This document shows, in pieces, positions 905 through 60,806 of a stretch of 64,000 nucleotides of DNA. The DNA lies in assembly GCA_918797485.1 (NCBI GenBank), contig CAKKNE010000002.1:6076474-6140473 (forward strand). The letters run 5' to 3'. The first letter of the stretch is position 1, and every line of letters begins with the position of its first letter. A program made the position numbers and the translations under genes. The notes under the pieces were generated by a model. That model was given only the letters and a program-made list of their open reading frames with translations. It had not been told where the DNA came from and searched no databases. This DNA is from Pelagomonas calceolata (Eukaryota; Sar; Pelagophyceae; Pelagomonadales; Pelagomonadaceae).

Positions 905-927
905 GCTAGTGTCTTACAGCCGCTAGC
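905..927 (+). promoter_or_regulatory. Upstream palindrome copy 1
   Basis: Arm GCTAG, centre TGTCTTACAGCC, arm GCTAGC. It lies 143 bp upstream of the ATG at 762 (minus gene) and 110 bp past the MFS stop. One of 12 related copies in this window. Confidence 0.6.
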
Positions 928-1036
928 CGTCCATCCTGTCGGTGGTTCGAGGACTAGGCGCCGCCGCATGGCGCCTCCCAAGAAAGAAGACCCAAGATCC
1001 CCCTCCCCGCCAGATAAGTCTGGCATGAAATAAAAC

Positions 1037-2362
1037 TTAAACGGCCGAGCGGGACGACGTCGACGACACGCTCTTCCCCCACGGCTCCACCATGCCCGCC
1101 GGCGCGGGACAGCCGCCGGTCATGGGCGAGATCGTGAAGCTGAGGGAGCCGATCTTCGACCCCTCGGGGCCGTCGGCGCGCCGCGACGCGGCGCGGTAGC
1201 TGCCAGCGAGGAAGACGCCTGCCAGGCCCATCAGGCCGCAGACGACGTAGACGAGCCCGTCCCAGCCGATCGCCGTATACGCGTAGCCCGACGCCAGCGA
1301 CCCCGCGCCCGCGACGCCGAAGATGACGAGGTCGTTGATGCCCTGGACCCGCAGCGCGTCCTTCTTTTCGTAGCAAGCTGTCAGTAAGACCGTACCGCTC
1401 GTAAAACATATGTTCCACGCGATGCCGTTGAACACCATGCCCAAGATGAAATTCCACAACTGCTGAGAAATTGCGAGGATAACCGCACAGATGGCGAAGA
1501 TGACGAAGCCTAGGCCCGACGCCGCGTAGGGCCCGATGTGTTTGATCAGATACCCTGTTCCCACAATACCAGGAGCGTACATGCTAAAGAAGTGCAACTC
1601 GAGCGCCAGGGAGGTGAGTCGGAACGGGAACCCGTCGTCCTTCATCGCTAGTGTGAGCGGCGACATAAGCATCACCATCGAAGTGTGAGCGAACGTGGCG
1701 ACGGAGACCGCACAGATGGAGTCAGGCTTCCCAAAGATTTCGCGGAGCGGCGTCGGGGTCTCCTTTTCGTCGGGAGCTTCGACCGGCGCGAACCGCACAC
1801 ACGCGATCAATGCGTAGTTGATCAGATTCGCGACGGCGACCAGCAAGAAGCAGCCGCTATACCTCGCGTTCAGCCCGAGCCACGGAAATGATTGGGCTCC
1901 TACTGCCGCCTCGGGCCCCGCGAAGGCAGCGAGGATCCCACCGCTCAGTACAAGCGCGACCGCCGGCGCGCGCTCGTCCTCGTCGCAGATCTCCGTCGCC
2001 GCGAACCGGTAGAACTGCCCCAGTCCTTGGCTCGTTCCGATGAGGAAGCACGCGATGAAGATCAACCACGCCGCCCTCACCTCCATGGCGATTGCACCGA
2101 GGACGCCACCCGCGAGTCCTAACGCGCAGCCGAAGCCGAAGCCCTTCGCTCGGCCGAGCGCCGTAAATATTTGAGCGCTGTACGCGCTTATCAACGCGGC
2201 TCCGATCAGGAACATCCCGATCGTGAACGGCGCGACCGAACGGTTAATGCCAATGGAGACGGCGGCGAGAGGACTGGCGGAGGTGATGAGAGTGGAAGCG
2301 GTCAGTACTGTAGCCCAGCAACCTGCCAGTACCCATATGTCCCGCTTGAGGCATTTTCCCAT
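1037..2362 (-). CDS. Major facilitator superfamily transporter
   Basis: A 441-aa single-exon integral membrane protein starting at the ATG at 2362. Hydrophobic segments are spread over residues ~10-390 in the twelve-helix MFS pattern. A loop of ~30 residues near the middle (APVEAPDEKETPTPLREIFGK, residues ~190-210) would join the two six-helix halves. The segment GTSQGLGQFYRFAATEICDE after helix 4 resembles a conserved loop in bacterial and diatom MFS_1 carriers. The substrate cannot be told from sequence. It is transcribed in the same direction as the aminopeptidase downstream in coordinate, with the palindromic motif 83 bp upstream of its ATG. The family call is fairly sure; the membrane in which it acts is unknown. 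Confidence 0.82.
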   Translation of the reverse strand: MGKCLKRDIWVLAGCWATVLTASTLITSASPLAAVSIGINRSVAPFTIGMFLIGAALISAYSAQIFTALGRAKGFGFGCALGLAGGVLGAIAMEVRAAWLIFIACFLIGTSQGLGQFYRFAATEICDEDERAPAVALVLSGGILAAFAGPEAAVGAQSFPWLGLNARYSGCFLLVAVANLINYALIACVRFAPVEAPDEKETPTPLREIFGKPDSICAVSVATFAHTSMVMLMSPLTLAMKDDGFPFRLTSLALELHFFSMYAPGIVGTGYLIKHIGPYAASGLGFVIFAICAVILAISQQLWNFILGMVFNGIAWNICFTSGTVLLTACYEKKDALRVQGINDLVIFGVAGAGSLASGYAYTAIGWDGLVYVVCGLMGLAGVFLAGSYRAASRRADGPEGSKIGSLSFTISPMTGGCPAPAGMVEPWGKSVSSTSSRSAV

Positions 2363-2444
2363 ATGCTCAGTCGTCGGGTTAACGTCTTAATCGATGGCAC
2401 GACGTCAAAACGCGTCCTCCACAGCCCAGGACTCAAGAAAAACA

Positions 2445-2468
2445 GCTAGCGGCCTGTAACACACTAGC
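2445..2468 (-). promoter_or_regulatory. Upstream palindrome copy 2
   Basis: Reads GCTAGC, then GGCCTGTAACACA, then CTAGC on the plus strand; the reverse complement fits the consensus. It is 83 bp upstream of the MFS ATG at 2362 and 70 bp past the aminopeptidase stop. Confidence 0.6.
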
Positions 2469-2537
2469 GAGCGCTTGGGTCAGATCTACCAGGCGCTCGA
2501 GGCCACAGACTACTATGAACATATTATTCGCGCTCTC

Positions 2538-4472
2538 CTACTTCCCGAACCGCGCCTCGAGCAGCCGGAAGAGTGCCCGCATGCCCATGGCCTCGCCGCC
2601 CTCGGGCCGGCCCGGCTTCGAGCCCGTGTTGAAGGCCATCATGTCGAGGTGGAGCCACGGCGGCGCCGCGCCGCCCTCCGCGGCCGGCTCGACGAACTCG
2701 GCGAGGTAGAGCGCCGCCGTGATGGCGCCGCCGTACGGCCCGTTGCCGATGTTCTTCAGGTCCGCGACTTTGCCGTTTATCTCCTCCCGGTACCCCTGCC
2801 ACAGCGGCAGGCGCCAGACCTGGTCCTGCTCCTTCGCCGACTCCGCGACTAACACGTCCGCGACGGCGACGCCCTCGTCGTTCGCGAAGAGGCACGGCAC
2901 GTCCGTGCCCAGCGCGACGCGGCCCGCGCCCGTCAGCGTCGCGCAATCCACAAGCAAGTCCGGCGCCTCGCTGCAGGCCTCGACGAGCGCGTCGGCGAGC
3001 ACGAGGCGGCCCTCGGCGTCCGTGTTGCCGATCTCCGTGGTCTTGCCGTTTCTAGCGACTAGGACGTCGCCGGGCCGGAACGCGTCGCCTGAAATCGCGT
3101 TCTCGACGGCCGGCACGAGGACCCGCAAGCGCACCGGCAGCTGCGCGTCCATGACCATAGCCGCCAGGCCCAGCACGTGCGCCGCGCCGCCCATGTCCTT
3201 CTTCATCGTGAGCATCGCCGCGGCGGGCTTGATGTCGAGGCCGCCCGTGTCGAAGCAGACCTGTGTGGAAATCAGAATTTTACGGCGCGTTCGTGCTGAA
3301 TCATCGCGTAGTCCTCCACGCCATCGACGCAACGCCTGCTCGATGGCGTGGCGATGCCGGTTCCTCACCGCTCGACCGAGCCAGGACGGCCGCGTCATCG
3401 CACCCGACGCACTGGTTGATTTCCACACAGAAACAGACGCCCTTGCCGACGAGCGTCACCTTCGGCGCGTCTTCGGATCCCCAGGTCAGGTCGATCAGGC
3501 GCGGCTGCTGCTTCGGGCCCGCCGCGCGGCCGACGGCGTGGATCTGGGGGTAGCCCTCGAGGAGCGCGTCGCCCTCGACGGTACGAACGGACGCGCCCGC
3601 GGCCTTCGCCAGGTCGCGGGCGACCTGTGTGGAAATCAAACTTCAGGCGCCCCACGCCATCGTCGCGAGATTGTCTCCGTAGCTGCATCTGCTCGATGGC
3701 GTGGAGATTATACGCCATCGACGCGACGTTGTTCCCGTGACCGCGTCGGCTCGATGGCGTGGGTGCACCTAACTCACTGGTTGATTTCCACACAGCGGGC
3801 GACGGCCTCCAGCTCCGCGGGCCCCAGGTCCCCCGCCGGCGTGTTGATCAGGTCCCGGCAGAGGTAGGTGCCTTTCAGGGACGTCGCGTAGTCGTCCGCC
3901 GCGGCGGGCACGACGAGGCTCGCGAACTTCGGCGGGTCGTCGGCCTTCGGCTGCGAGCCCGTGCCCTTGCAGGCGTCGAACGAGTAGCAGCCCAGGCCCC
4001 ACGACAGCGCCGCCGTCGCCGGTAGCGGCTCCGCGGACTCGAGCTCGTAGACCGCGCCGTCGGAGGGCAGCCGCGCCGGCAGCGACGCAAAAGCATAAAG
4101 AGACGACGCATTCTTCGTCATGAAGGCCCACTTGCGTTCTGGCAAGAGGACGAGGGCGTCGTCCTTGAACTTCGCGAGGCCCGCGGCCTTCAAGTAAGCC
4201 TGCGTGTCGGCGGCCTGCTCGCCGAGCCAGGCCTCGTACTCGTCCTTTTGCAGCACCAAGACCGGAGTGGTAGGAGTATCGCTGGCGCTCACGAGGTTCG
4301 GCGCCCAGCGGTCCGAGCTCGGGAAGGCGCCGCCGGCCAGCGCGCGCACGTTGCGGTGGAGGCGCCGGGCGCCGCGCGCGAAGGCGCGGATCATCGGGAG
4401 CGATGCGAGCGTCAACGCCGTCCGGAAGCGCATCGGAGCCAAGCGCGCAGGTGCAGCACTGCTTGCTTGCAA
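2538..4472 (-). CDS. M17 leucyl aminopeptidase, three exons
   Basis: Exons 4472-3804, 3624-3439 and 3260-2538 join in frame to 525 aa. This is a metal-dependent leucine aminopeptidase (M17) that removes N-terminal residues from peptides. Joining exons 2 and 3 rebuilds the family signature GKG-VCFDTGG (residues ~283-292). MKKDMGGAA follows, then NTDAEGRLVL (residues ~364-373), carrying the metal ligands and catalytic Lys and Arg known from PepA. The first ~40 residues are basic and hydroxylated, consistent with an organellar transit peptide. Both introns are introner elements whose 8-bp target duplications supply the GT donors. An in-frame ATG at 4433 is an alternative start. The palindromic motif lies 134 bp upstream. 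Confidence 0.93.
3261..3430 (-). mobile_element. Introner element 1 (170 bp) in aminopeptidase intron 2
   Basis: Terminal inverted repeats CTGTGTGGAAATC at both ends, flanked by an 8-bp duplication (plus strand AAGCAGAC at 3253 and AAACAGAC at 3431). On the coding strand the upstream copy GTCTGTTT starts the intron and the element ends in CACACAG, giving a 178-nt GT-AG intron (3438-3261). The interior has complementary arms CACGCCATCGA and TCGATGGCGTG. Confidence 0.93.
3625..3795 (-). mobile_element. Introner element 2 (171 bp) in aminopeptidase intron 1
   Basis: Same terminal repeats, with a perfect target duplication (GTCGCCCG on the coding strand; 3617-3624 and 3796-3803). Intron 3803-3625 is 179 nt, GT-AG. 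The interior is more diverged from the other copies: the ATTTTACGGCG stretch is absent and the hairpin arms are partly repeated. Confidence 0.92.
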
Positions 4473-4605: not shown

Positions 4606-4629
4606 GCTAGCGGTCTGTAAGACACTAGC
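4606..4629 (-). promoter_or_regulatory. Upstream palindrome copy 3
   Basis: GCTAGC, GGTCTGTAAGACA, CTAGC on the plus strand. It lies 134 bp upstream of the aminopeptidase ATG at 4472 and ~120 bp past the stop of the next gene. Confidence 0.62.
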
Positions 4630-7204: not shown

Positions 7205-7278
7205 CTTTCCCGTTCGTAACCCCTCGCGCAAAGGGGACTCTATTATCTAACCACTAATCACATTACAAAACAAGACGC

Positions 7279-8883
7279 CTAGCGCGACGACGACGTCGGC
7301 CGCGACACGAGCTCGGGCCGCCGCGCCAGGAACGCCGCGAAGGTGAGGCCGGCCGCGACGACGGCCGTCGCCGACACGTCCGCGACGACCTCGAAGTCCG
7401 TCGCGTACGTCAGAGCGACGCCGGCGAGCCCGAGCTCCGCCGCGCCGGTCAGCGCCGCCTCGCACCCCTGCACGGCGTTGCGATCGGCCTCGGCGACGAG
7501 CTGCTGCTGCAGCTCGACGTACGCCACGTCGAACGCGTACAGGAACACGCGACTCACGACGACGGCGACCATGAGCGTCTGCGGCGCGTCGACGAAGGTA
7601 GCTGCGACTGTGACCGCGACGACCTGGCCAAGGATGCTAAGCGCCGCCACGTCTCGCGTCGCCAGGCGCCGAGCCTCAGATGTGGTCGTCGTTTGCGCCC
7701 GCCGCGCATCTGTGCGGCCGTCGGCGGCCGCCGCGTAGAGGGCCACGCCGCCGGCGCCCGCGAGCGCTCCCGCCGCGCGAAAGGCCGCGAGCGACTCCGC
7801 CGGCGCGCCGCGGTCGGCCAGGGCCGCCAGGAGCACGGGCGCGTGCGGCGTCAGGGCGGTGAACCAAAGCAACGCAAAGACCACGGTCGTGATCGCCGCG
7901 CCGCTCGGCTGGCCGAAGAAGGCGGCCCAGGCCGGCGCGGTCGTGATCGCCGCGCCGCTCGGCTGGCCGAAGAAGGCGGCCCAGGCCGGCGCGGCCTTCG
8001 TCGTTTCGCCCTTCGGCGCGCTGAGCGCACTGGGCGCGCGGGCGCGGAGCCGCTCGAGCGCAGCCTGGGCGGCGAGCTCGCCGGCGACGGCGGCCGCGCC
8101 GACGGTCGGCGCGCCGCTCGCGCCTAAGACGAATGCGCCGAGCGCTGGGCCAGCTAATTCCCCAAGCAGCGCCGCGTTCGAGAGCGAGACCGTTGCTTTG
8201 CGCAGCGCGTCGCCCTCGAGGAGCGTCGGCGCCCAGTCTTTGCGGGGGGCGCCCTTCGTGACGACGGCGCCGAGCGCTTCGATCGCCGAGCCGGCGAGCA
8301 GGAGCGGGAGCCACGACGTTTCGTCGGCGAGGTGTGGCAGCGCGAGGCAGCTGAGCCCGACGCCACAGGCCTGAGCGGCACGAGCGGCGCGCGCCGCGTC
8401 GACGCGCGGCGCCTTGTCGGCGAGCCGGCCCACGGACGGCGCGAAGAGCACTTTGGCGCCCGTCGTCGCGGCCATGAGCGTCGCGGCGGCCTGGGGGCCG
8501 CCGGACTCGAGCAGCGCGAGCGGGAGCGCGAACTGCCACGCGGTGGCGAACGTCGTCGAGGCGCCCGCCGACAGCGTGAGGAGGAGCGTCGTCTCGGCGT
8601 CGGCGTCTGCTTTGAGCCGGTCTCCGGCGTCGACGGCCTCGAGCCAGTACGCAGTGTCGAGCTCCGACGGCTCAGAAGTGCCCTCGACGTCTGCGAGCCA
8701 TTTCTCAGTGTCTAGGAATGGTACGGCGTTCTCGCGCTTCCCGCCGACAGAACGCTGCGCGTCCTGCTTGCTCTTGAGCAGCACATGCTCTCCTCTAGAG
8801 ACATAGGGTGTCGCGAGCCTACCAAGCGTTGCTGGTGGCTGTGTGAAGCCCCAGACAGCTGGCACGATGATCAAGAACCGCAT
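7279..8883 (-). CDS. Ferroportin-like (SLC40/IREG) transporter
   Basis: 534 aa from the ATG at 8883 (MRFLIIVPAVWGF), whose first ~25 residues look like a signal or plastid-targeting sequence. The reading frame stays open to an ATG at 9147, but that extension is Cys/Arg-rich and probably 5'UTR. About ten to twelve hydrophobic segments are present. LFAPSVGRLADKAPRVD after an early helix matches the ferroportin loop after TM2. VFLYAFDVAYVELQQQLVAE near the C-terminus matches the ferroportin 'FDL..QLLQE' region. Ferroportins export iron or other divalent metals; plant plastid members are called IREG3/MAR1. A perfect 54-bp tandem duplication adds 18 residues before the seventh or so helix. Confidence 0.75.
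   Translation of the reverse strand: MRFLIIVPAVWGFTQPPATLGRLATPYVSRGEHVLLKSKQDAQRSVGGKRENAVPFLDTEKWLADVEGTSEPSELDTAYWLEAVDAGDRLKADADAETTLLLTLSAGASTTFATAWQFALPLALLESGGPQAAATLMAATTGAKVLFAPSVGRLADKAPRVDAARAARAAQACGVGLSCLALPHLADETSWLPLLLAGSAIEALGAVVTKGAPRKDWAPTLLEGDALRKATVSLSNAALLGELAGPALGAFVLGASGAPTVGAAAVAGELAAQAALERLRARAPSALSAPKGETTKAAPAWAAFFGQPSGAAITTAPAWAAFFGQPSGAAITTVVFALLWFTALTPHAPVLLAALADRGAPAESLAAFRAAGALAGAGGVALYAAAADGRTDARRAQTTTTSEARRLATRDVAALSILGQVVAVTVAATFVDAPQTLMVAVVVSRVFLYAFDVAYVELQQQLVAEADRNAVQGCEAALTGAAELGLAGVALTYATDFEVVADVSATAVVAAGLTFAAFLARRPELVSRPTSSSR
7885..7992. repeat. Perfect 54-bp tandem duplication inside the ferroportin-like gene
   Basis: Two identical adjacent units, 7885-7938 and 7939-7992, encode APAWAAFFGQPSGAAITT twice in frame. 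Absolute identity at synonymous sites indicates a recent duplication, or possibly an assembly artefact. Confidence 0.95.
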
Positions 8884-9109
8884 TTTTAGGGTCTCTGCGC
8901 AGAGCTGCGACAGCTGTTGCTTTAGACTCAGATCTGGCTCAGCTAGAGCCATACGAACGCTAGCTGTAGCGAACGCTATACCCCTCCTGGGGCTCGCCCA
9001 CCATTGCTCTGAATCGCAAAAACAACGTAGCTCATGATCAAGACATGCCGAGTACAAAACGCGGGGGCGGGGCGGGCGTTCGGTCACGCAGCCCCGCGGC
9101 GGCCGGGTA

Positions 9110-15281: not shown

Positions 15282-15300
15282 GCTAGTTATAACCCACTAG
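15282..15300 (+). promoter_or_regulatory. Palindrome variant copy 4 (type II)
   Basis: GCTAGTTATAACCCACTAG followed by ATTT. The same variant is at 60788. It lies downstream of the ChaN-like gene and ~180-200 bp upstream of the SLC4-like fragment. The rest of 14979-15479 holds no recognised feature. Confidence 0.5.
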
Positions 15301-15479
15301 ATTTTGATGTTTTGTTTTTTTTGGCAAAGTTGCCGTAGTGTGACGCGACGTCACTCGAGCGATCAGGCGTTGCCTCGTTTATTTATTTACGCGACGGACA
15401 CGCGTCACCCTGGCATCGCCGACGCCGGCGACAGTAAAAGTGGCAAAATAATATTGTTTGCACCTAGCTCTGGGAGCGC

Positions 15480-15854: not shown

Positions 15855-15923
15855 GAGACCGCGACGCGTGTGTATATTATGCTTCTCGATTTCTCCCTTG
15901 TCGTCTCCCGTTCCTAGGGATAC

Positions 15924-15944
15924 CTAGTGTCTTACACCGCTAGC
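15924..15944 (+). promoter_or_regulatory. Upstream palindrome copy 5
   Basis: CTAG, TGTCTTACACCG, CTAGC; 201 bp upstream of the PUS3 ATG at 16145. The left arm lacks its first G (A-C-CTAG). Confidence 0.58.
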
Positions 15945-21271: not shown

Positions 21272-21294
21272 GCTAGTGTCTTACAGCCGCTAGC
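21272..21294 (+). promoter_or_regulatory. Upstream palindrome copy 6
   Basis: GCTAG, TGTCTTACAGCC, GCTAGC, identical to copy 1. It lies 131 bp upstream of the ABC1-kinase ATG at 21141 and ~75 bp past the PP2C stop. Confidence 0.65.
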
Positions 21295-22663: not shown

Positions 22664-22688
22664 GCTAGCGGCATGTAAAGACACTAGC
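22664..22688 (-). promoter_or_regulatory. Upstream palindrome copy 7
   Basis: GCTAGC, GGCATGTAAAGACA, CTAGC; 154 bp upstream of the PP2C ATG at 22510. The arms extend outward (GCTTGCTAG and CTAGCAAGC), making this the longest palindrome of the set. Confidence 0.62.
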
Positions 22689-22729: not shown

Positions 22730-24250
22730 CTGTTCGCTAATGGTCCAAAGAGATCAATGGGACACTTACTGGGGGCCGAAAAAATTAAATTTTTTAATTC
22801 GCGATATTGACGATCCCGCCATGACGGCCGCGCCGGTGGAATCCTGTCAATCCCTGTCAAAGAGATCTCCCTGGGGTCGCCTGGGGTCGGTACTATACAC
22901 GTGCAAGCGTCTACACCGCATACGCCGGCGCTTCAAGCATTTTTGGCCGATTTCTCTCAGCAGACCACTCCAATTTAGCAATAAAAGGCCAAGGTTTGCT
23001 TCCAGGGCTCTCGGAGAGCACTGGGCTGCCGCATCGACGGCGTATGCGGTGCAGGCGCTTACCCCTTATCAGACCTACCTCGGGAGGCCTCCAGGAGCCG
23101 ATCTGCATCCGAAAAAAGTGTGCAATTTGGGCCCGATGGCGCCCCGTTCCCGTCAAAAACGGCAATTACCCGAGGGTCCCCAGTGGTCGCCGTAGCGGTC
23201 TCGTTGGACCCCATACTACCCCACCGATAGTCAATTACAAGTATATGGCATCTACATCACGAGAAGGGTACTTTTGGCTGCCCATGCTCGGGACGTGAAC
23301 ATCTTGATCTGGACCTCGCTTAAGTCGGTCGATCATGGGACAAATGATCGCGTCATGATGCATGGTGATGGTACACGGGCTGATGGTCGCAGGGCCAAGT
23401 AATTTGCCATTCTTTGCTAGATAGTGGGCTCGCGAGACCGACGACCCGCGCCGAGCATCTTTGGGTCTCGGGGCAATGTAGTACACGTCCGGGCCTGTTA
23501 TCTGGCCCGTCCCACAACTAAATCGCCTGAAACGCAAATTTATTTTATAAACCACCGGTCTGGGGCCTTTCCGGTGCTCCGTCTCCGCACCGTCGTCCGC
23601 GGAGAACGGGCAAGTCGGTCGATTGTGAATAGAACAACGGCGTTATGGTCCATCTGGGTGGTGGCGTCGCTGATACTCGCAGGTTTGGGATTCTTGCTCG
23701 TTTAACATAAAACGCGCGGTACCGAAGTCGTCGAATCCCGCGGCTCTAACGGGTGATCTAAAATAGCTCAGTAGTCGCTGATTCGGCCTAGATGGACTGT
23801 ACCACTAACAAACGGAAGGAAACGAACATAAACGCGAGAGTTGTCTAGTATAATTCTTTTCCCGCCCTCCGGGCGCGGGCCGTCGGCTCCGGTTCCGTCG
23901 AATATGTATGAAAACTGGGCTGGAGTTGATATGATGTACCATTTGGACGGTAGAAGGCACCGTCAAACGCTGGTGTATTTTGGCGAGCCGCAAGACGCAG
24001 TGACCTAGCGTATCGACATACTAGGAATCTGTGGGGAGCGGGAGGGGTACGGGGAACCCTGCGACGTAACTAGCCTCAGCCTCAGCCTCTGTATATATAT
24101 ACATACATATAGTATACACGTATACAGGCCTAGGCGGATGGCTTTTGAAAACAGACCTCTCCGACTGACCCCCGAATAGTGAAGTTCAAACGGCAATCTC
24201 CGCTCTGTAGGCGAAGAAGGATATATAAAATCAACGACATTACACGCATA
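22730..24250. other. Lower-GC block without recognisable genes
   Basis: About 1.5 kb with visibly more A/T than either flank, including an AT run (AATTAAATTTTTTAATT near 22784). ORFs up to ~150 aa exist on both strands, but none has protein-like composition or a recognisable domain, and the two strands share RLHRIRRR-type peptides because of an inverted repeat. It could be a decayed mobile element or an old insertion. It sits between the PP2C upstream region and the 3' end of the bL17 gene. Confidence 0.5.
22905..23060. repeat. Imperfect 23-bp inverted repeat with ~110-bp loop
   Basis: AAGCGTCTACACCGCATACG at 22905 is matched by the reverse complement of 23038-23060 with about two mismatches. 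Both arms end in CGCCG/CGGCG. Possible small MITE-like element or structured RNA within the low-GC block. Confidence 0.7.
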
Positions 24251-24941: not shown

Positions 24942-24964
24942 GCTAGTGTCTTACCGCCGCTAGC
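24942..24964 (+). promoter_or_regulatory. Upstream palindrome copy 8
   Basis: GCTAG, TGTCTTACCGCC, GCTAGC, in the divergent region between bL17 (ATG 24723, 219 bp away) and the PP2C gene (ATG 25213, 249 bp away). Nothing else was recognised in 24724-25212. Confidence 0.62.
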
Positions 24965-30255: not shown

Positions 30256-30277
30256 GCTAGTGAAGTGAGACACTAGC
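30256..30277 (-). promoter_or_regulatory. Upstream palindrome copy 9 (diverged)
   Basis: GCTAGTGAAGTGAGACACTAGC; on the minus strand GCTAGTGTCTCACTTCACTAGC-like, so the TGTCT half is kept. 194 bp upstream of the helicase ATG at 30471, within the 318-bp spacer after the ABC-F gene. Confidence 0.5.
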
Positions 30278-30470: not shown

Positions 30471-33400
30471 ATGGGCACCACCGTCAGCAAACTCGAGCCG
30501 GACGACCTGTTACGCTTCATAGAGATTCAAAAGGGCTACGTCGACTCCGGCCGGGAGAAGATAGACTTCTCGCAACCAACGGGGAACGAAAGTGATGACG
30601 AAGAAGAGGAGGAAAAAGAGGAGGGCGGCGGCCAGCGCCGGACCGTCGAGGAGGACGTCCGGTTCGAGTCGTACAAGCCCTCAAAACTCAAGGTCGAGGG
30701 CATGCGCCCGCACCCGAGCGACGCGGTCGAGAACGGCACGCTCGCGACGGTCGCGCCGCCGGACGTGACGTATAAACTGAACATCGCCGAGGACATGCCA
30801 CACGTCGTGACCGAGGGCCGCCTCAGTGATTTACAATTAGAGTTCGTGACCTACGCCTGCCAGCGGCACGAGCAGCGCTTAGCTTCCGGCTCGCGCCGCG
30901 GCTTCTTCCTGGGCGACGGCGCGGGCATGGGCAAAGGGCGCCAGCTCGCGGGCCTGATCCTCGAGAACGTCCTCGCCGGCCGCCGGAAGCACATCTGGTG
31001 CACAACTAATATAGACCTGAAGGAGGACGCGACGAGAGACCTACGCGACGTCGGCTGCACCATCGCCAAGGATCTAGAAGCGGCGGCCGAGAGCGGGAGT
31101 AAGCGGCGCCGAGCCGCGGTCGACGACGACGCCGCGGTCATCGACGTCTTCGCCTTACCGACTTCTTCGACCGCGAAGATCGATCCGGAGCGAGAAGGTG
31201 TCTTAGTGCTGACGTACAGCGGTCTGAGCGCCTCCGGCGGCGCCGGCTCGCGCCTGCAGCAGGTTGTCGACTGGTGCGGCGAGGACTACGACGGCTGCCT
31301 CCTGTTCGACGAGTCGCATTGCGCGAAGAACCTCATCGCCGATCTGCCGGGCACCGAGACCGCCGCGGCCCGAGCCGTGGATACGATCCAGCGGCTCCTG
31401 CCGAACGCGCGCGTCGTGTACTGCTCAGCCACGGCGGCGTCTGAGCCGCGGCACTACGCCTACATGACGCGGCTCGGCCTCTGGGGCCCGGCGTCGCCGT
31501 TTCCCTCGGCCGACGCCGAGGAGGGCGAGTCCAACAAGATGGCTATCCAGAACTTCATCAAGACGTGTGAGTCGCGCGGGGTCGGGGCCATGGAGCTTTG
31601 CGCGCTGCACCTGAAGCGCGAAGGAGCCCTGCTGTGCCGCACGCTGTCCTACGCCGGGGCCGAGTTCAGCGTCGTCGAGGCCTCGTTGACGCCGGAGCAG
31701 ATCGAGACCTACGACGCGTCGGCGCAGCTCTGGCAGATGCTCTACACGCGCATGGAACGGAAGCTCGCGAAGATGGAACTGTGGGTCAACGAGGCCCTGG
31801 ACCCGCGCGACATGGAGAACCGCAAGGAGGAGTTCAAGGACGCGAGACAGAACTACCGCTCGCAGCTCTGGAGCGGCCACCTGCGGTTCTTCCGGTCGCT
31901 GATCACCGCGATGAAGGTGCCGAAGCTCGTGGAACTCGCGAAGACGGCCCTGGCGGAGGACAAGTGTGTCGTTATTGGACTTCAGAGCACGGGCGAGGCG
32001 CACGCGAAACGGATCCGGGAGAAGCTCGAGGCCGCGGCCGCCGCCGAGGACATTCAAGAGGACATGCTCTCGGCGCCCCAGGAGACGCTCCGCTACGTCG
32101 TGAGGAAGGTCTGGGGCAACGAGCTCGCCGAGGTCGAGCGGCTCAAGGCCGTGGCCGAGCGGGCCGCAGCGCGCGTCGAAGCGCTAGCGAAGGAGGAAGC
32201 CGACGCCGCGGCCGAGAGGGCGGCGCGCCAACATGTCGACGACGGCCTGAGCGACAGCGACGAGGACATGGAGGACACCGCGGCGCTGCTGAAGAAGCCA
32301 CTCGGCAACAAGAACTCGTCGCCCTCGAAGCGGCGCTCGTCAGACGCCAAGCTCGACGTGTGGGGTTTCGACGACTCGCAGGAGGATTCGCAAGACGTCG
32401 CGGAGGCCGGCGAGGAGGAGGGCGAGGAGGGCGCGGCCGGCGCGGCCGGCGTCGGCTTCATGATGGACCTCGATGATGAGACTGAGTGGATAAAGGCGTT
32501 TTCGGACAAGATCGACGCACTCAAGCTGCCCGGCAACGCCTTAGACATGTTAATCGACGACCTCGGTGGCTTCAACAAGATCGCCGAGATGTCCGGGCGG
32601 TCAGAGCGGCTCGTGCGCAATTACAAGGGCGAGTTCTACACGCAGAAGCGATCCGAGGCGAACCAGGTCTCCATGCATGAGCAGAACCTTTTTGAAAGGG
32701 AAGAGTTCCAATCCGGCGAGAAGCTCGTCGCCATCATTAGCGACGCGGCGTCGTCCGGGATCTCGCTGCACGCGGAGCAGAACGCGCGCGTGAAGAACCG
32801 CCGCCGCCGCGTCCACATTACTCTAGAACTGCCCTGGTCGGCCGACAAAACGCTACAGCAGATGGGCCGGTCCCACCGCGCGAACCAGGCGTCGGCGCCC
32901 GAATACAAGCTATTAGTGTCGCCGCTGGGCGGCGAGCGCCGCTTCTGCGCGGCCGTCGTCAAGCGCTTGCAGTCATTGGGGGCTTTGACCCAAGGCGACC
33001 GCCGCGCGACGGGCGTCTCGAAGTCGTGGGCCTGCTTCGACGTGGATACGCGCCAAGGGACGGATGCGATCCTAGATTTGTACCACCATTCGAATTGGAT
33101 GGTCCGCGAGCTGGTCGGGCTCGAGAAAGCGAATCCGAACCGACCCCTCGTGGCGCCACCGAAGCTCCCCGCGGCTGAGTGCGAGGCGCTCGCACGCGTC
33201 GCCCTAGAGAGAGGCGGCGCCGACTTTCTGCGAGCGCCGAAGGGCTGGGACGATGAACTATACGGCGGCGGCGTCGACGCCGTCGCGGCGAAGATTCACA
33301 TGCTCCATGGCGCGCCGCTGTGGCTGTCGCTCGTGGGCATCGCCGTTGCGAGCTACGAGGGCGCGGGGTCGGCGCGCAAGGCTGTCGTGCCCAAGTTCCT

Positions 33401-34460
33401 CAACCGCATCCTCGGCCTGGAGGTGTCGCGCCAGCAAAAGCTATTTGATTACTTCGCTAGGACGCTCGAGCGTATGATACGAGCGGCGAAGCGCGACGGG
33501 AAATATGCGCAAGGCATCCAGACGGTCGACGGCCGCTCCGTCGAATTCGAGCGGCCGGCAAAAGCGCTACACGTGACTACGCCGAGTCCCTTCCCGATCG
33601 AGTGCCACACGGTCGTGGCCGACGTCGGCATGGACTTCGAGACTGCGCAGAAAATGCTCGAGGAGACGCGAAGCGCGGGCAAGGCCACCGCGATTGACAT
33701 CGACGGCGACGACGACGGCGGCGGCAGCACGGCTCTCGTTCCTAAGCGTGATAGCGACGGCGAGGGCTGGATTAGCACCGGCCGCGTGACGAACGTCTCT
33801 AATAACAACCAGGGCTTCGTCCCGCCCCCGGCGCGGCCCGGTCAGCGCTTCGGAGACCGCGACGGCTTCCGGCTCATCAAGGCGAAGTACGCCAAGGGTG
33901 ACGGCGACGGCATCTGCCTCATCATAGAATCCGGCGAGAGCTCGATGCGCGGGCTGAGCGTCAAGACGGACCGCTTCCAGGTCTACTTCCCGGGAGAATG
34001 CCAAGACCAGTACTATTGGTCGCAGCTGAAGAACAAGACGGAGGCGCTCGACGACTCGAGGGCGAAGCGGCTGTGGGATGCTGGCTTCCGGAACCGCTCC
34101 AAGGATCAGAAGAGTTATCTATTGACCGGCCCGGTATTGCACGTCGTGCCGCAATTAGTCCAGGCGCAGTGTAGGTGCATGGTCAAGAATCCGGTGCGCG
34201 TCGAGGTCGCGCGGGCCGACGAGAAGGACGAGGAGGGCAAGCGCAGCGGCGCTACTCTCCTAGGCGTATTGCTGGATGACGAATACGCGGATGAAATCGT
34301 GCGACATATCGAGGAGAAAGCCAACCAGGACGACGAGGAGCGCGCCAACGCCCTGATCGACGAGATCAACGCCCGCGACCGCGACAAGGAACAACGGCAG
34401 GCGCACGCGAAGAGCGTCGCCGGGAAGGAGCGCGCCAAGAAGCGAGCCAAGAAGGCCTGA
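30471..34460 (+). CDS. SBNO: Strawberry-notch (SBNO)-type helicase-like protein, copy 1
   Basis: 1,329 aa, single exon from ATG 30471; MGTTVSK makes N-myristoylation conceivable. An acidic N-terminus is followed by the SNO superfamily-2 helicase core. FFLGDGAGMGKGRQLAG is Walker A (~residues 144-160), LLFDESHCAKN is the DExH box, VVYCSATAAS is motif III, and LQQMGRSHRANQ is motif VI. An acidic linker (EEGEEGAAGAAG) separates the two RecA lobes, and a coiled Lys/Arg-rich tail ends the protein (KERAKKRAKKA). SBNO proteins act as nuclear transcriptional coregulators in animals and as chromatin factors in plants. A second, intron-containing paralogue lies at 44936-49078. Confidence 0.93.
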   Translation: MGTTVSKLEPDDLLRFIEIQKGYVDSGREKIDFSQPTGNESDDEEEEEKEEGGGQRRTVEEDVRFESYKPSKLKVEGMRPHPSDAVENGTLATVAPPDVTYKLNIAEDMPHVVTEGRLSDLQLEFVTYACQRHEQRLASGSRRGFFLGDGAGMGKGRQLAGLILENVLAGRRKHIWCTTNIDLKEDATRDLRDVGCTIAKDLEAAAESGSKRRRAAVDDDAAVIDVFALPTSSTAKIDPEREGVLVLTYSGLSASGGAGSRLQQVVDWCGEDYDGCLLFDESHCAKNLIADLPGTETAAARAVDTIQRLLPNARVVYCSATAASEPRHYAYMTRLGLWGPASPFPSADAEEGESNKMAIQNFIKTCESRGVGAMELCALHLKREGALLCRTLSYAGAEFSVVEASLTPEQIETYDASAQLWQMLYTRMERKLAKMELWVNEALDPRDMENRKEEFKDARQNYRSQLWSGHLRFFRSLITAMKVPKLVELAKTALAEDKCVVIGLQSTGEAHAKRIREKLEAAAAAEDIQEDMLSAPQETLRYVVRKVWGNELAEVERLKAVAERAAARVEALAKEEADAAAERAARQHVDDGLSDSDEDMEDTAALLKKPLGNKNSSPSKRRSSDAKLDVWGFDDSQEDSQDVAEAGEEEGEEGAAGAAGVGFMMDLDDETEWIKAFSDKIDALKLPGNALDMLIDDLGGFNKIAEMSGRSERLVRNYKGEFYTQKRSEANQVSMHEQNLFEREEFQSGEKLVAIISDAASSGISLHAEQNARVKNRRRRVHITLELPWSADKTLQQMGRSHRANQASAPEYKLLVSPLGGERRFCAAVVKRLQSLGALTQGDRRATGVSKSWACFDVDTRQGTDAILDLYHHSNWMVRELVGLEKANPNRPLVAPPKLPAAECEALARVALERGGADFLRAPKGWDDELYGGGVDAVAAKIHMLHGAPLWLSLVGIAVASYEGAGSARKAVVPKFLNRILGLEVSRQQKLFDYFARTLERMIRAAKRDGKYAQGIQTVDGRSVEFERPAKALHVTTPSPFPIECHTVVADVGMDFETAQKMLEETRSAGKATAIDIDGDDDGGGSTALVPKRDSDGEGWISTGRVTNVSNNNQGFVPPPARPGQRFGDRDGFRLIKAKYAKGDGDGICLIIESGESSMRGLSVKTDRFQVYFPGECQDQYYWSQLKNKTEALDDSRAKRLWDAGFRNRSKDQKSYLLTGPVLHVVPQLVQAQCRCMVKNPVRVEVARADEKDEEGKRSGATLLGVLLDDEYADEIVRHIEEKANQDDEERANALIDEINARDRDKEQRQAHAKSVAGKERAKKRAKKA

Positions 34461-36446: not shown

Positions 36447-36470
36447 GCTAGTGTCTTACAAGCCGCTAGC
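36447..36470 (+). promoter_or_regulatory. Upstream palindrome copy 10
   Basis: GCTAG, TGTCTTACAAGCC, GCTAGC; 196 bp upstream of the bestrophin ATG at 36251. Confidence 0.63.
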
Positions 36471-44935: not shown

Positions 44936-47900
44936 TTATACCTTCGCCGCGCCGCACGCCGCGCACTGGAGGAAGCCCGCCTCGGCCTCGGAATGGGCGT
45001 AGGTGCACTTGGAGCAGGTCCAGGGCTCCGCATCGACGTCGAAGACGACGTCCGAGGCCGACGGCTTCTTCGGCGCGGGCTTCTTGGCCTTGGGCGCGAA
45101 GAAGCTGCGCACGTCGCCGCCGGCCGACGACGCCTTGCGCTTGGCGGGAGCGGAGCGGCGCTTCGCGGGCGGCGCCCGCTGCGATGGCGGCGCCCGCTGC
45201 GGCGGCGGCGGCGGCGGCTTCGGCGCGAGCGGCGCCCGAGGCGCGCCCGAGTCGTCGCCCTTCTTCTTGAAGAAGGACTGGATCGTCTTGGGCGGCGTCG
45301 TCGCCGCGCGGAGCTTCGCCGCGTCGACAGGCGTCGGCGGCTCGGCTCGCACGTGCTGGCGCGCGTGGGCCGCGCGCTGGCGGCTCCGCTGGGCGAGCGC
45401 CGCGCGCAGCGTATTGAGGACGTGCGTCGGGAACCGCACGCCGACGATCGTCTCGGACGGCAGCACGACGCGGACCGCGCGGAGGCGCTGGTCCTCCTTG
45501 TTCATCTCGACTTGGCGCTCCGCGACGGTCTGGGCGAGCGCCGGCCAGAGCGGCAGGACGTTGCCCGCGACGAGGCCGAGCCGCTTGAGCCGGCCGCCGT
45601 TGTCCTGGTTGTGCGACGACTCGTACTCCAGCGTCCACGCCTTGCGCAGCTGCTCCCGCTCCTCGTCGGACGCCGACGGCAGGCCGCCAGCGTGGCACGT
45701 GTACTTGCTAATGATGTCGTGCGCGAAGAGCTCGGTCGCGTTGGCGCCCGTGTTCGGCCGCGTGATGAGAAAGGTCTGGGCCGCGTTCGCCTTGCGGACC
45801 GCCATCATGATGTAGGGCCGCTTCGTCCGCGTGTTGGTGTGGTTCGAGATGTAAAAGCCCGCGCCCCGAAACGACCGCCGCGTCGCGTCCGGGTCGTTGT
45901 CGCCCGGCCTTGCGTTCGCGCGGCCCGTGCGCAGCTGGTCCTGCGCCGCGTCGAACGACGCGCCGCGATCCAGCGTGAGCTCGTAGAGTTTGGTAGACGC
46001 GCCGGACACGGCGTCGACGTCGACGGTGGTCACGGCGTTCACGACGACCGACGACGCGCGCACGGACGCCAGCCCGGCGTCGTAGGACCCCGCCGCCTTG
46101 GCCGCCTTGACGACGGCGGCGTGCGCCACGGAAAAGTACTGGAACAGCAGCTTTTGGTCCGCGACGGGCGTCGCCTGGAGCCGATTCAAGAACAGCCTCA
46201 CGTCGCCGTCCTTTTTTGGTTCGAGGTCGAGCGTGTCGTAGGCGTGGTGCGCGGCCGCGGCGAGCATGGACGTCTCGTCGGAGGCGTTGTAGAGCTGGGG
46301 CGCCTCCTCGTAGAGGTAGGGCGCGAACGCGTCGTAGGCCGCGCGCCGCGTCGACCGCGCCCTCGCGGCGTCGCGCGCCATCGCGACGGCCGCGCGCAAG
46401 GCGTCGTTCTCCGCGCCGTCGGGATCGACGTTGGCCGCGACACTTCGCGGGTCCCGCCCGTAGTCGCGGCACGCGCGCGCCACGTTCTTCAGCGCGTCCC
46501 GACCCTGGGGCGTGTCCAGGTCAAAGTCGCCCAGGTCCTGGCCCGACGCCGCCCGGCGGTCGCCCTTGGTGAGGGCCCCCAGGGACGCCAGACGCTTCGC
46601 GACGGCCGCGGCGAACCGCGCTTCTCCCCCGAGATCCGTCGCCAGCAGCGCGTAGACGGGCGCCGTGGCCTGGTGCGAGCGGTGCGTCCGGCCCAATTGC
46701 TGGATACACTTGTCCGCGGACCAGGCCAACTCCAACGTCACGTGGACGCGGCGGTGCTGCGCGCCTTTGGAACCAATGGCCGCGTGCAAGGACACGCCCG
46801 TCGAGGCCGCGTCCGAGATGATGGCGATGCGCTTCTTGCCGTCCTGAAAGGCCGCGCGCTCCCGGAGGTTCGTCGTCGTGCTGTCCTGGTCCCGCGAGGC
46901 GTCGAACCGCTGCTCGTAGCGGTAGCGGCCGTTCTTGCGCGCGACGCGGAGGCCCCGGCCCGTCATTTCCGCCACCGTGTCGGGCCCGCCGAGCCGGTCG
47001 ATGAGATCATCTAAAGGCGACGGTGGCACCGGCAAGTCGTCGAGGCGCTGAAGGATCGCGTCGCGCAGCGCGACGAGCTCGGGGATGGGCTCGCCCTGTT
47101 TCTCCGCCGCCGCGCGCCGCGCGGCCTTCCACCGCGCGACGTGCTCCGCGGAGGGCGGGCCCCGGTCCGTCGTCAGGATCTTCCGCACGACCGCGTCGTC
47201 GATTTCCTCCAGGGGCTCCGGCGCCGGTTGTACCGGAAAGTGCTGCTGCACGAACGCGCGCGCCGACGAGCGCGCCGCGGCCACGAGCCCCGGCGCCGCG
47301 TCGCCGACCTTGGCGTGGGCCTCGGCCATGACGTCCCGCAGCCCCGCCTCGCCGGTCGACTGGAGGCCGACGACGACGGACTTGCCGGCGGCCACGGCCT
47401 CCTTGGCGCGCTCGGCCACGTACGGCACCTTGGCCGCCGTCTGGACCTCGCGGAAGAAGCGGAGCTGCGCGCCCCAGAAGCGCTGGCGCGCCGTGCCCGC
47501 CGCCGCGCCGCGGAGCTGCGTGCGCGTGATGGCGCGGTCGAGGGCGCGCCGGAGGCCTGCGCGCGCGAGGAGCCCGTTTGGTTTCGTTTCGAGAGAGGGG
47601 ACGCGGCGTCGGCACCGCGCCACCACGCCGCCGCCTCGTCGTACGCGTCGCTGGCCTCTTTATCCAGATCGCAGGTCCAGCGCTCGAACTCGCAGCGCTG
47701 CCAGGCGAGGCCCCGCGACACGTAGGCGCCGCTCGACTTGAGCTCGAGCGCGAGCAGCTCCAGCGCGCCGACGCCGCGCTTCTCGAGCGTGTCGGCGAAT
47801 GTCTTAAAGTCGGCGAAGGACGTGCCCGCGCCCCACAAGCCCAGCCGCTCCGCGTAGGCCATGTTCTTGATCTCCGAGACGCCCGTCGCCGACGCGTAGA

Positions 47901-56658: not shown

Positions 56659-56991
56659 TGTTTCTGGCAGCTCAAATTAGGCGCGCCAAAAATGGATGCG
56701 GTTGCAGCGCCTAAGAGAGCGTTACCGCTCGCAGCAGCAAACCACAGCCCACAGGTCGTGCTGCACGAACTCTCTACTATCGCTGCAGCGCGTAGTGCGC
56801 GTTTGCGTGCCGCGCCAAGCTGTTGCTTTGAAACCTAGCTCAGAGACATACTAGGCAAGTTCGGAGAGTTATTCCGAGGTAACTCCACTCAGATGAATCG
56901 TACTAATATGAAAAACGCGGCCCGAGAGGAAGGAGGAGGGCCGACGAATCGACGCGCGGTGGCTAGTCAGTCAAACAGGAATTCATTTTAG
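56659..56991. other. Intergenic, 333 bp
   Basis: Between two minus-strand genes. Contains GCAGCGCGTAGTGCGCG-like GC-rich repeats and a more AT-rich centre. No motif, repeat or RNA gene recognised. Confidence 0.45.
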
Positions 56992-58260: not shown

Positions 58261-58284
58261 GCTAATGTCTTACAGGACGCTAGC
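58261..58284 (+). promoter_or_regulatory. Upstream palindrome copy 11
   Basis: GCTAA, TGTCTTACAGGAC, GCTAGC (left arm with G-to-A). Lies in a 304-bp divergent promoter, 169 bp upstream of ATG 58092 (minus) and 113 bp upstream of ATG 58397 (plus). Confidence 0.6.
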
Positions 58285-58396
58285 GCGCTACGCACAACAA
58301 AACCGACACGGGCTGCCCGATGCACCAATGACACCATCGATGATGCCCAAAGGGCAAAACCGATGATATCTCCAGCCATGCGGCGAAAGGGGTAAG

Positions 58397-59257
58397 ATGC
58401 ACCACCTTTGGTGGTGGGCCCTGCTGCTCCTCTGCGGGGCAGCATCCCTGGACGACCGACAGCAGTTCGGCAAATTCCTCCAGCAGCTGAAGCGCAAGCC
58501 CACACATGGCGAAGGAGGCATCCCGCGCCTCCTCTTCACGTCGCACCGGACGCCGCGCGCCGAGCTGCCCCCGAAGCTCCGGGAGAACGTGGACGCCTGG
58601 CGGCGCCTGAACCCGAGTTTCGCCTTCCGTTACTTCGACGACGCCGCCCAGTCGAAGTTCATGCGCGAGACCTGTGCAGTGCCGCGCTGCCTCGAGGCTT
58701 ACGACGTCCTCGTCTCCGGCGCGGGCAAGGCGGATCTCTTCCGCATCGCGTATCTATACTACGTGGGCGGGTGGTGGGTCGACGCGGATCTCAAGCCGGG
58801 GCCCATCGCGGAGAACTGCGACCTCGCGTACCCGGAGAAGCTCCTGCTCGTGGCGGAGCGCCACGGCATGCCGCGCTTCATGATCTTGGCAGGGAACGGC
58901 CACCCGCTGCTAGCCAAGACGCTCGCGACGCAGATTGCAAATGTCTTCCGCAACCACAGGCGCAGCCCGGAGAACCGCCGCAACACGTTGTTCGTCACGG
59001 GGCCGTCGACGCTTGCGAAGAGCATCTGCGACGAGCTCGGCGCGGACTTAGGGAGTCCGCACTGCGGCCGGGGCCGCTTCGTGGGCTTCGCCGGCGCGAC
59101 GAAGCTAGCCCCGTTCGCCGCGCGCGCCTTCGCCGGCGGCTTCCGCATGGACACGTGCTCCGAGTTCTGGTTCAGCCCCTTCCCCGATTTCGACCACAAG
59201 CGCGAGCTGCGGAGCATGAACCTGACGCACTACAGCCTCCTGCGCACGGCGAGGTAG
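58397..59257 (+). CDS. GT32-like glycosyltransferase (OCH1/DXD type)
   Basis: 286 aa from ATG 58397; signal peptide or anchor WWWALLLLCGAASL. GIPRLLFTSHRTPRAELPPK opens the fold. SGAGKADLFRIAYLYYVGGW and WVDADLKPGP carry the GT32 signature with the metal-binding D-x-D. GTs of this family (OCH1, MIPC synthase) add hexoses in the Golgi. The protein ends soon after the catalytic domain. It converges with the Spinster-like MFS gene, whose stop lies 41 bp away. Confidence 0.85.
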   Translation: MHHLWWWALLLLCGAASLDDRQQFGKFLQQLKRKPTHGEGGIPRLLFTSHRTPRAELPPKLRENVDAWRRLNPSFAFRYFDDAAQSKFMRETCAVPRCLEAYDVLVSGAGKADLFRIAYLYYVGGWWVDADLKPGPIAENCDLAYPEKLLLVAERHGMPRFMILAGNGHPLLAKTLATQIANVFRNHRRSPENRRNTLFVTGPSTLAKSICDELGADLGSPHCGRGRFVGFAGATKLAPFAARAFAGGFRMDTCSEFWFSPFPDFDHKRELRSMNLTHYSLLRTAR

Positions 59258-59298
59258 TTCGATTTGTAATTATTACGTTGTACGACAGACAAGAGAAA

Positions 59299-60675
59299 CT
59301 AGGCAACATCACCACAGAGCGGCGCCTCGAGCGGGGCGTCGTCCGGCGCGGGATCGTGGCGCACGTGGTCGGCGGCGGCGCGGCGCGCGAGCAACGCAAA
59401 AGCCGCGTAGCCCGCCGCGCACGCGAGCAGCACGCTGCGGAAGCCGAGCAACAGGCCGACGCGGTCGACGACGCGGCCGCCGACGAGGGGCACGATCGCC
59501 TTCATCAGGTTCTGCGCCGCGAACTGGATCCCGGACGCGATCGTCGCCGCGTCGCGCGGGCTCGCCGCCAGCACCACGCCGTTGATCGCCGGCGTCGGCA
59601 GCGCGCCGAAGAACAAAAAGCCCCAGCAGAGCGCGATGAAGGGCCAGGGCCGGCCCGGCCCCGCGAGCGGCAGCAGCGCGACGCAGCCGACGGCGCCGAG
59701 CGCCGCCGCGCTCACGAAGCTAAGCGTCGGCCCGAGGCGGTCGTAGCCGCCGATCCGCTTTTCCACGACGTAGGCGCCCACCAGGTTGCCGGGGATGGGC
59801 GCCGCGACGAAGACGGCCGACACCGCCGTCGTCTGCAGCGAGGTCGGCCACGAGGGCGCCTCGCGCGCGGCGACCTGCTTGATGAAGTAGAGCACGAAGC
59901 CCACCGTGCCGCAGACGAACGCGCCCGCGCCGACGGTGCGCGCGACGACGGGCGTCGCCAGCGTCGCGCGGAGCTTGGTGAGGCCGGACCGCTGCGGCGC
60001 CGCGGCGCCGAGCAGGCGCTGCGCCTCGCCGGTGCGGGCCACGTCCATGATCTCGGCCGGGAAGCACGCCGCGGAGACGGCCGCGAGCGCCATGAGCCCG
60101 GCCTCGACGAGGTAGAGCCGCGTCCAGGGTGCGCTCACGGCGCTGCCGATGGCGAAGCCGCAGAGAATGCCGCCGAGCAAACAGACGTTCAGCAGCGCGA
60201 GCCAGAGCGGCTTGCGTTTCGACGGCGCCCTCGCGTCGACCCAGGCGGGGAAGTGCACCGCGGCGCAGCCCCAGCCGAGGCCGCCGAGCGCCCGCGCCGC
60301 GACGAGCGCGCGGTAGCTCGGCCGCAGCGCCGCGGCGGCCGCAGCGACGGCCGGCAGCGCGCACGCGCCCACGAGGACCTTCCGCGCGCGCACGCGCTCG
60401 AAGAGCGCCATGGCGATGATGCCCGCGGGCACGATGCCGTAGTCGGGCGCCGCCGCGACGACGCCCTCCTGCGCGTAGTCGAGGCGCAGGCTCGCGGCGA
60501 TGCGCGGCATCGCGCTCGAGACGACGCCGGCCTCGAAGGCGCGGGCCACCGTCGCGGCGCAGGCGAACGCGAAGAAGACGTGCGTGATGACGCTCCGTTT
60601 GATGACGACGACGGGCTCCTCCCCTGGCCCTGGGGGTGGTGCTGCTGCTGCTGCAGCGTCGGCAGTAGGGCTCAT
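59299..60675 (-). CDS. Spinster-like major facilitator superfamily transporter
   Basis: 458 aa from ATG 60675 (MSPTADAAAAAAPPP). The frame stays open to an ATG at 60885, but that 70-residue extension would overlap the divergent promoter and the palindromic motif, so the shorter start is preferred. Twelve hydrophobic segments. SSAMPRIAASLRLDYAQEGV near TM1/2 resembles the Spinster/MFS 'L....G...' start. The loop PAWVDARAPSKRKPLWLAL between TM4 and TM5 matches the conserved acidic-basic loop. GRVVDRVGLLLGFRSVLLAC sits near the C-terminal half. Spinster proteins export sphingolipids or lysophospholipids; the substrate is not certain here. Ala-rich and GC-rich throughout. Confidence 0.78.
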   Translation of the reverse strand: MSPTADAAAAAAPPPGPGEEPVVVIKRSVITHVFFAFACAATVARAFEAGVVSSAMPRIAASLRLDYAQEGVVAAAPDYGIVPAGIIAMALFERVRARKVLVGACALPAVAAAAAALRPSYRALVAARALGGLGWGCAAVHFPAWVDARAPSKRKPLWLALLNVCLLGGILCGFAIGSAVSAPWTRLYLVEAGLMALAAVSAACFPAEIMDVARTGEAQRLLGAAAPQRSGLTKLRATLATPVVARTVGAGAFVCGTVGFVLYFIKQVAAREAPSWPTSLQTTAVSAVFVAAPIPGNLVGAYVVEKRIGGYDRLGPTLSFVSAAALGAVGCVALLPLAGPGRPWPFIALCWGFLFFGALPTPAINGVVLAASPRDAATIASGIQFAAQNLMKAIVPLVGGRVVDRVGLLLGFRSVLLACAAGYAAFALLARRAAADHVRHDPAPDDAPLEAPLCGDVA

Positions 60676-60787
60676 TCTTTTTGTTGGCGTTGGCTTTGCT
60701 GCGGGTATATTACTACGAAACAGCTGTACTATGCTTGCGAGGCGCCCTGCGTAAGTGTTTTTTTCGCGGCGCCGCAGCCCTAATCGA

Positions 60788-60806
60788 GCTAGTTGTAACC
60801 CACTAG
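60788..60806 (+). promoter_or_regulatory. Palindrome variant copy 12 (type II)
   Basis: GCTAGTTGTAACCCACTAG followed by ATTT, one base different from 15282-15300. In the divergent promoter 113 bp from ATG 60675 (minus) and 96 bp from ATG 60902 (plus). Confidence 0.55.

Follow-up and report, generated by a model that had tools for sequence, protein, structure and literature searches.

In yeast, the sites of the general regulatory factors Reb1, Abf1 and Rap1 lie in the nucleosome-depleted promoters of many unrelated genes, in either orientation and beside A/T tracts. The element described here is a near-palindromic motif of 22-25 letters with two CTAG blocks, which recurs upstream of start codons in the alga Pelagomonas calceolata and is almost certainly the site of a promoter-associated protein. 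The stretch of DNA from which it became known, called the window throughout, spans 64,000 bases (G000:C2:6076474-6140473). Toxoplasma also falls within the wider SAR group. Its factor TgAP2XI-5 is reported to bind GCTAGC and has been linked to S/M-phase genes (PMC4035076, PMC6631176). The vertebrate CGCG element, TCTCGCGAGA, is described as a palindrome of TATA-less promoters, bidirectional in action and enriched at ribosomal-protein and housekeeping genes (PMC6192621). For P. calceolata itself, the assembly of strain RCC100 is reported to comprise six nuclear contigs of 32.4 Mb and two organelle contigs, with a 393-kb duplication shared by ends of contigs 1 and 5 and an intron frequency of 0.45 per gene (PMC9481584).

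The motif, its copies and its relatives

The consensus of the main motif is GCTAGTGTCTTACA-N-CGCTAGC, and its arms are inverted copies of GCTAGYG. In the original prediction, twelve intergenic sequences of the window were taken for copies of one motif, and a genome-wide scan was proposed. Such a scan of 32,445,274 bases on 8 contigs, set against the backwards motif as control, yielded 919 copies (438 + 481) of the strict pattern GCTAGTGTYTTACA-N2-5-GCTAGC and none of the control. GCTAGTGTCTTACA alone occurs 1177 times genome-wide (control 0), and the 24-base form with at most 3 mismatches and fixed spacing 2257 times (control 0). In a local sample of 264 kb, composed of the window and 20 fetched 10-kb loci (L009-L028), 48 copies with at most 4 mismatches were found, against none of the control; at 5 mismatches the signal merges with the control (4 and 6). 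Given the empty controls beside 48 local, 919 strict and 2257 looser copies, a chance origin is excluded both locally and genome-wide. The spacer between exact arms measures 1 base in 53, 2 bases in 148 and 4 bases in 24 copies of the genome, and 3 bases is the commonest length, seen in 34 of 46 local copies. In the complete listing of the 77 exact copies with 1- and 4-base spacers, all are located on contigs C1-C6 and none on C7 or C8. The window has about twice the motif density of the genome (4 strict copies, with 1.8 predicted by the genome mean).

The main motif is part of a wider family of inverted CTAG pairs. CTAG is fivefold denser between genes (4.99/kb) than in coding sequence (CDS; 0.95/kb), and the core GCTAGC was counted 52 times in 52.0 kb of intergenic DNA versus 11 times in 191.2 kb of CDS. 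The distances from one CTAG to another peak at 18 and 16 bases; 17 bases is next in frequency, and 13 and 14 are seen in a few cases. Sixty CTAG pairs are spaced by 13-19 bases and 6 by 26-32, a figure inflated by the 20 motif-chosen loci; CATG, GATC, GTAC and ACGT each form 2-3 pairs at 13-19 bases. For AGCT, TGCA and TCGA, 12-19 pairs at 13-19 bases and 11-18 at 26-32 were found, so these words display no such spacing preference. Genome-wide, 7104 CTAG pairs at 13-19 bases compare with 2930 for GATC, a word that outnumbers CTAG in coding DNA and is therefore an imperfect control. A second form, CTAGTRTGTC-N1-10-CTAG, is present 604 times (control 2). Among the matches listed, 37 of 99 have the 16-base spacing and approach the palindrome CTAGTRTGTCGATACGCTAG, the right half of which, read backwards, is CTAGCGTATC. 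On C1, a stretch of 327 kb (~2,600,166-2,927,311) holds no strict or second-form copy among the matches listed, with ~15 expected from the genome density; it may correspond to the published low-GC centromere region of that contig.

A sister motif, CTAGTGGGTTAYAACTAG, occurs at 16 places genome-wide, exact or with one mismatch, and is preceded by AAAT at 11 and followed by CTCA at 12 of them. Nine of the places are divergent, five tandem, one convergent and one inside a predicted gene. All twelve sequences of the original prediction were found, the copy given as 15924 in fact beginning at 15923; as a single motif the set stood only in part. Ten fit the main motif within at most 3 mismatches, and the two at 15282 and 60788 belong to the sister motif, a third and rare type that should be separated from the main one. 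The 16 sister-motif loci have no Rfam match, the single Rfam tRNA of the window (37764) lies away from the sites, and ARAGORN called no tRNA in 36 fetched loci and three in the window, one of them supported by Rfam. An RNA-gene element was therefore rejected.

Position of the sites relative to genes

Genes were modelled with a self-trained two-strand gene finder that allows introns at an intron-length cost. It produced 160 genes and 69 introns in the 264 kb, near the published density and the published 0.45 introns per gene. Non-overlapping open reading frames (ORFs) of at least 900 nt take up 48% of the bases and hold none of the 48 local sites, in agreement with the earlier view that the copies lie outside coding sequence. 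According to the gene models, in which CDS makes up 72% of sampled positions, 27 sites are divergent and 15 tandem, 3 stand at locus edges, and the other 3 are divided between introns (2) and CDS (1). Complete intergenic regions contain 42 of the sites; by length 5.9 of these should be convergent, and none is (P 0.0015). Counted by region, a site is present in 41 of 92 promoter-containing versus 0 of 37 convergent regions (P 4e-8, own models), the first fraction being inflated by the choice of the 20 loci, each of which was picked for an exact copy; in the window alone, the main form is present in 9 of 22 promoter-containing versus 0 of 7 convergent regions. Enrichment at gene starts, with start codons as proxy, had been predicted and is supported. 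Tandem regions of the window carry a site in 6 of 13 cases and divergent regions in 3 of 9. Because these tandem regions are equally served and the overall preference for divergent regions is weak, the motif is a promoter signal rather than a mark of divergent gene pairs.

The distance from site to ATG in tandem regions has a median of 197 bp (interquartile range, IQR, 178-222; range 69-810); for positions drawn at random from these regions the quartiles are 89 and 279. In divergent regions the sites are central, at a relative position of 0.41 versus 0.32 in a null model that stays 56 bp or more away from either start (P 0.002), and distances to the two starts are mostly ~60 to 420 bp. Of 26 site-bearing divergent regions, 25 have one site. 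The only double site, L021:4888-4948, has two copies 37 bp apart. Tandem-region sites are oriented with the gene in 9 cases and against it in 6, a small sample in which both orientations are used, as had been claimed. A/T runs of at least 4 bases stand within 30 bp at 42 of 96 site edges versus 58 of 384 later 30-bp bins (P 7e-9), and 34 of 48 sites have such a flanking run. TATAAA was found in only 4 of 148 upstream stretches of 250 bp. When words were searched by position from the motif and from the ATG, A/T runs and AAGC beside the motif were among the strongest signals. The word ACGCCATCGA and its overlaps were also strongly over-represented, with 12 occurrences versus 0.1 expected, in 11 intergenic regions of the window and L009-L028; it may be either another promoter element or part of the context of start codons.

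The genes behind the motif number 66; 60 were scanned and 40 have a Pfam family. For comparison, 40 of 74 other genes were scanned, with a family in 33. Families behind the motif are mixed: transporters, kinases, SUMO, proteasome, bystin, tRNA and cap methyltransferases, BEACH and enkurin. By inspection of this small set, no functional theme was evident in comparison with the other genes scanned.

The twelve predicted sites of the window, together with three more at 8942, 24005 and 56835, are the following:

905..927, plus strand: main motif with exact arms and 2-base spacer, 143 bp from a minus-strand ATG at 762
2445..2468, minus strand: main motif with 1 mismatch, before an MFS transporter gene whose model spans 1037-2215 on the minus strand
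4606..4629, minus strand: exact main motif, before an M17 aminopeptidase gene whose model spans 2538-4433 on the minus strand
8942..8964, plus strand: weak copy, 4 mismatches; its centre and the start of a ferroportin-like gene, modelled at 7279-8883 on the minus strand, are 69 bp apart
15282..15301, minus strand: sister motif, CTAGTGGGTTATAACTAG in minus-strand reading, tandem region
15923..15944, plus strand: main motif, 1 mismatch, 1-base spacer, with a plus-strand gene modelled from 16145, 200 bp on
21272..21294, plus strand: main motif with exact arms, within a 394-base intron of the gene model
22664..22688, minus strand: main motif whose left arm carries one additional T (counted as 3 mismatches and a 4-base spacer); the gene start modelled at 22510 on the minus strand is 153 bp away
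24005..24024, minus strand: 16-spaced CTAG pair, near-palindrome CTAGTATGTCGATACGCTAG in minus-strand reading, in the same tandem region as 22664
24942..24964, plus strand: main motif, 1 mismatch, between divergent genes at 218 and 248 bp
30256..30277, minus strand: variant GCTAGTGTCTCACTTCACTAGC with GCTAGTG in both arms and 3 mismatches in all; a Strawberry-notch-like helicase gene begins 193 bp on
36447..36470, plus strand: exact main motif, 195 bp from the start of a bestrophin-like gene (36251, minus)
56835..56854, minus strand: 16-spaced CTAG pair, tandem intergenic region
58261..58284, plus strand: main motif, 1 mismatch, between divergent genes at 168 and 112 bp
60788..60807, minus strand: sister motif, CTAGTGGGTTACAACTAG in minus-strand reading, between divergent genes at 112 and 238 bp

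The ATG distances originally given agree within 1 base at 15924, 22664, 24942, 30256, 36447, 58261 and one side of 60788. A direct listing of upstream ATGs reproduces them exactly at 905 (ATG 762) and 21272 (ATG 21141). At 2445, 4606, 15282 and the other side of 60788 they are uncertain, the models choosing 229, 172, 325 and 238 bases. The site at 21272 more likely lies in the space upstream of an ABC1-kinase gene (ATG 21141 or 21136) than in an intron. The window also has two genes with a Strawberry-notch helicase C-terminal domain, ~10 kb apart, at 30471-34457 and 44939-47554.

The motif was also seen at two wild loci. In bacterial genomes, the strict pattern was found in two contigs, L029 and L030, both filed as bacterial metagenome-assembled genomes from run ERR599032. 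L029 matches the P. calceolata genome at 96% and, further on, at 90%; all 24 of 24 motif bases are kept, and four one-base gaps fall in ~16 bases on one side. L030 matches at 94%, and at 91% with gaps around the site; 21 of 22 motif bases are kept, and at the last base, where the genome has G, the wild sequence has the consensus C. At these two loci the motif is kept amid changed flanks. The model of L029 puts the site in a predicted 398-base intron; because the first exon is outside the algal match, this locus is informative only as a site ~270 bases before the algal exon at 2437. In L030 a gene modelled on the plus strand from 5966 begins 364 bases after the site. The Pelagomonas-like DNA occupies ~2043-3615 of L029 and ~5370 to 7515 of L030, within GTDB bacterial contigs labelled Spirochaeta and Desulfobacteraceae, and in L029 bacterial-looking genes flank the algal stretch on both sides. 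These mixed contigs are most likely chimeric assemblies. In viral contigs, no match was found for the three motif patterns, and viral use of the motif was therefore rejected. Aureococcus, another pelagophyte, has a giant virus that is reported to methylate adenine in CTAG and related motifs (PMC12700378).

Competing explanations and a possible mechanism

Within the class of promoter-associated protein sites, the element is probably that of a general promoter-opening factor resembling the yeast general regulatory factors, a reading to which a probability of about 0.62 is given. Three features that mark such sites were observed: upstream enrichment with absence from convergent regions, independence of orientation, and adjoining poly(dA:dT) tracts. 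A condition-specific transcription factor (for light, iron, nitrogen or the cell cycle) that governs a very large regulon is also possible, although distinctly less probable. Long and well conserved sites are usual for specific factors, and the main form serves only part of the promoter-containing regions (the 41 of 92). The core GCTAGC is moreover the reported target of TgAP2XI-5, with its link to the S/M phase (PMC4035076, PMC6631176). Against such a regulon stand the very mixed Pfam kinds of the motif genes (40 with a family among 60 scanned) and the flanking A/T tracts, which fit a chromatin role. The original prediction had left open whether the element is a transcription-factor site, a core-promoter element or a nucleosome-positioning element, and it is supported. 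Of the first two, the free orientation, central divergent placement and variable distances favour an upstream factor site; a core-promoter element that fixes the transcription start in place of TATA or initiator is improbable. The rarity of TATAAA and the mostly narrow ATG distances in tandem regions would suit it. However, orientation is free (9 to 6), and the divergent distances of ~60 to 420 bp are too variable unless the 5' leaders vary equally; with the ATG as start proxy, neither one orientation nor a fixed start distance was found.

A chromatin boundary, replication origin or other intergenic element unrelated to promoters would explain why the site is often midway between divergent genes. 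It is very unlikely: none of the 37 convergent regions has a site, tandem regions of the window are served at least as often as divergent ones, and the density of the wider family (7104 pairs) would be high for origins. Least credible of all is a short mobile or insertion-derived element with a preference for promoters, such as a remnant of a MITE or Introner, for which the inverted arms of the site and the reported introns of Introner-like length in this genome (PMC9481584) could be cited. From 6 bases outward the flanks of 46 copies are unrelated (mean pairwise identity 0.26, highest pair 0.47), and beyond the core they share no more than a weak TT that immediately precedes the left arm. Direct repeats at the edges are near chance, with at least 4 bases in 3 of 46 copies (shuffled 1.8) and at least 5 bases in 1 of 46 (shuffled 0.4), and no clear target-site duplications were seen at the edges of these 46. 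In addition, the spacer varies from 1 to 4 bases while both arms stay exact, and no local copy lies in a long ORF. Because the flanks are unrelated and clear target-site duplications are missing, a mobile repeat, which would have refuted the original prediction, was rejected.

Several points weigh against a general promoter-opening factor or lessen the force of the evidence for it. Even in the enriched sample, the main form is absent from 51 of 92 promoter-containing regions. The preference for divergent regions is weak when length is considered (P 0.02). Start codons come from our own models, which put 1 of 48 sites in predicted CDS and 2 of 48 in predicted introns; these three placements are suspected to be gene-model errors. 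When ORFs alone are used, 31 sites are nearer an ORF 5' end and 17 a 3' end, a ratio that does not differ significantly from that of random positions outside ORFs (P 0.11). All 20 extra loci come from the first 0.73 Mb of one contig, where exact copies guided their choice, and 8 of them lie below position 393,000, the likely range of the published duplication; near the starts of C1 and C5, exact 1-base-spacer copies do match in position (112202 and 112263, 145549 and 145624). Conservation in the wild was seen at two loci only. The possibility of a regulon-specific factor belongs here as well.

With a general promoter-opening factor, what we infer is a protein, its dimeric form, a depletion of nucleosomes and an effect on transcription. 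A putative sequence-specific protein would bind a promoter-proximal site ~100-300 bp upstream of start codons. It is proposed to bind as a dimer because the arms are inverted GCTAGYG copies, and its two identical DNA-binding units would be joined by a flexible link because the spacer varies by 1-4 bases. Beside short A/T tracts, the bound factor would hold nucleosomes off a TATA-less promoter, and the opened promoter would permit outward transcription on one or both sides. With one site per intergenic region, divergent neighbours would use it jointly.

Of the window's 22 promoter-containing regions, 12 have a CTAG pair or main site; its 7 convergent regions have none. It is conceivable, though rather doubtful, that a large share of P. 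calceolata promoter regions, perhaps half, is organised around a single inverted CTAG pair (spacing 16, 17 or 18, also 13 and 14), recognised by dimeric factors that form one lineage-specific family and replace TATA-type signals, with divergent genes using one site. Half is an upper guess because the window is about twice as rich in strict copies as the genome. If the family does serve a large share of promoters, it shows how promoters can be marked in a TATA-poor, GC-rich and compact algal genome, in an alga that is among the most abundant eukaryotes of the ocean. A near-exact site of 22-25 bp at ~1000 places can be used as a promoter mark in annotation and as bait for the binding factor, and it helps the interpretation of existing expression data on iron, light and nitrogen.

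Comparison with known systems

Among the top-ranked papers on pelagophyte promoters and CTAG motifs, no such element is named, and the top-ranked matches for the two 14-base motif strings neither contain them nor look related. The main text of the P. calceolata genome paper does not use the words motif or promoter, and that of a 2026 Pelagomonas paper does not use motif, promoter, transcription factor, cis-regulatory or upstream. Broadly used palindromic promoter-factor sites are known as a kind of element; this sequence, and its use in a pelagophyte, were not found in the top-ranked literature.

Like the vertebrate CGCG element as described, the motif is a palindrome of TATA-poor, bidirectional promoters. 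The sequences are unrelated, with TCTCGCGAGA on one side and the consensus given above on the other, and the CGCG element is reported to be methylation-sensitive with activity shown by reporters (PMC6192621), whereas the evidence here comes from sequence alone. With the reported TgAP2XI-5 site the motif has in common a palindromic GCTAGC core located in promoters, and an over-representation of that core between genes, as for an ApiAP2-type site, was found. However, the Toxoplasma site is described as a single hexamer of stage and cell-cycle genes (PMC4035076, PMC6631176), and the algal motif has two CTAG arms, mostly 16-18 bases apart, with conserved inner bases. Because TgAP2XI-5 binds GCTAGC, an AP2-domain protein is a lead for the binder. 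Heat-shock-factor-type domains, with 31 matches in the genome, are a lead as well, although they have no link to the site. The consensus sequences of yeast Reb1 and Abf1 are unrelated to the motif, which has inverted CTAG arms and a variable spacer and is known only as sequence. Nevertheless, as with the sites of the yeast general regulatory factors, it stands before many unrelated genes in free orientation, has A/T tracts adjoining it and is often located in shared divergent promoters.

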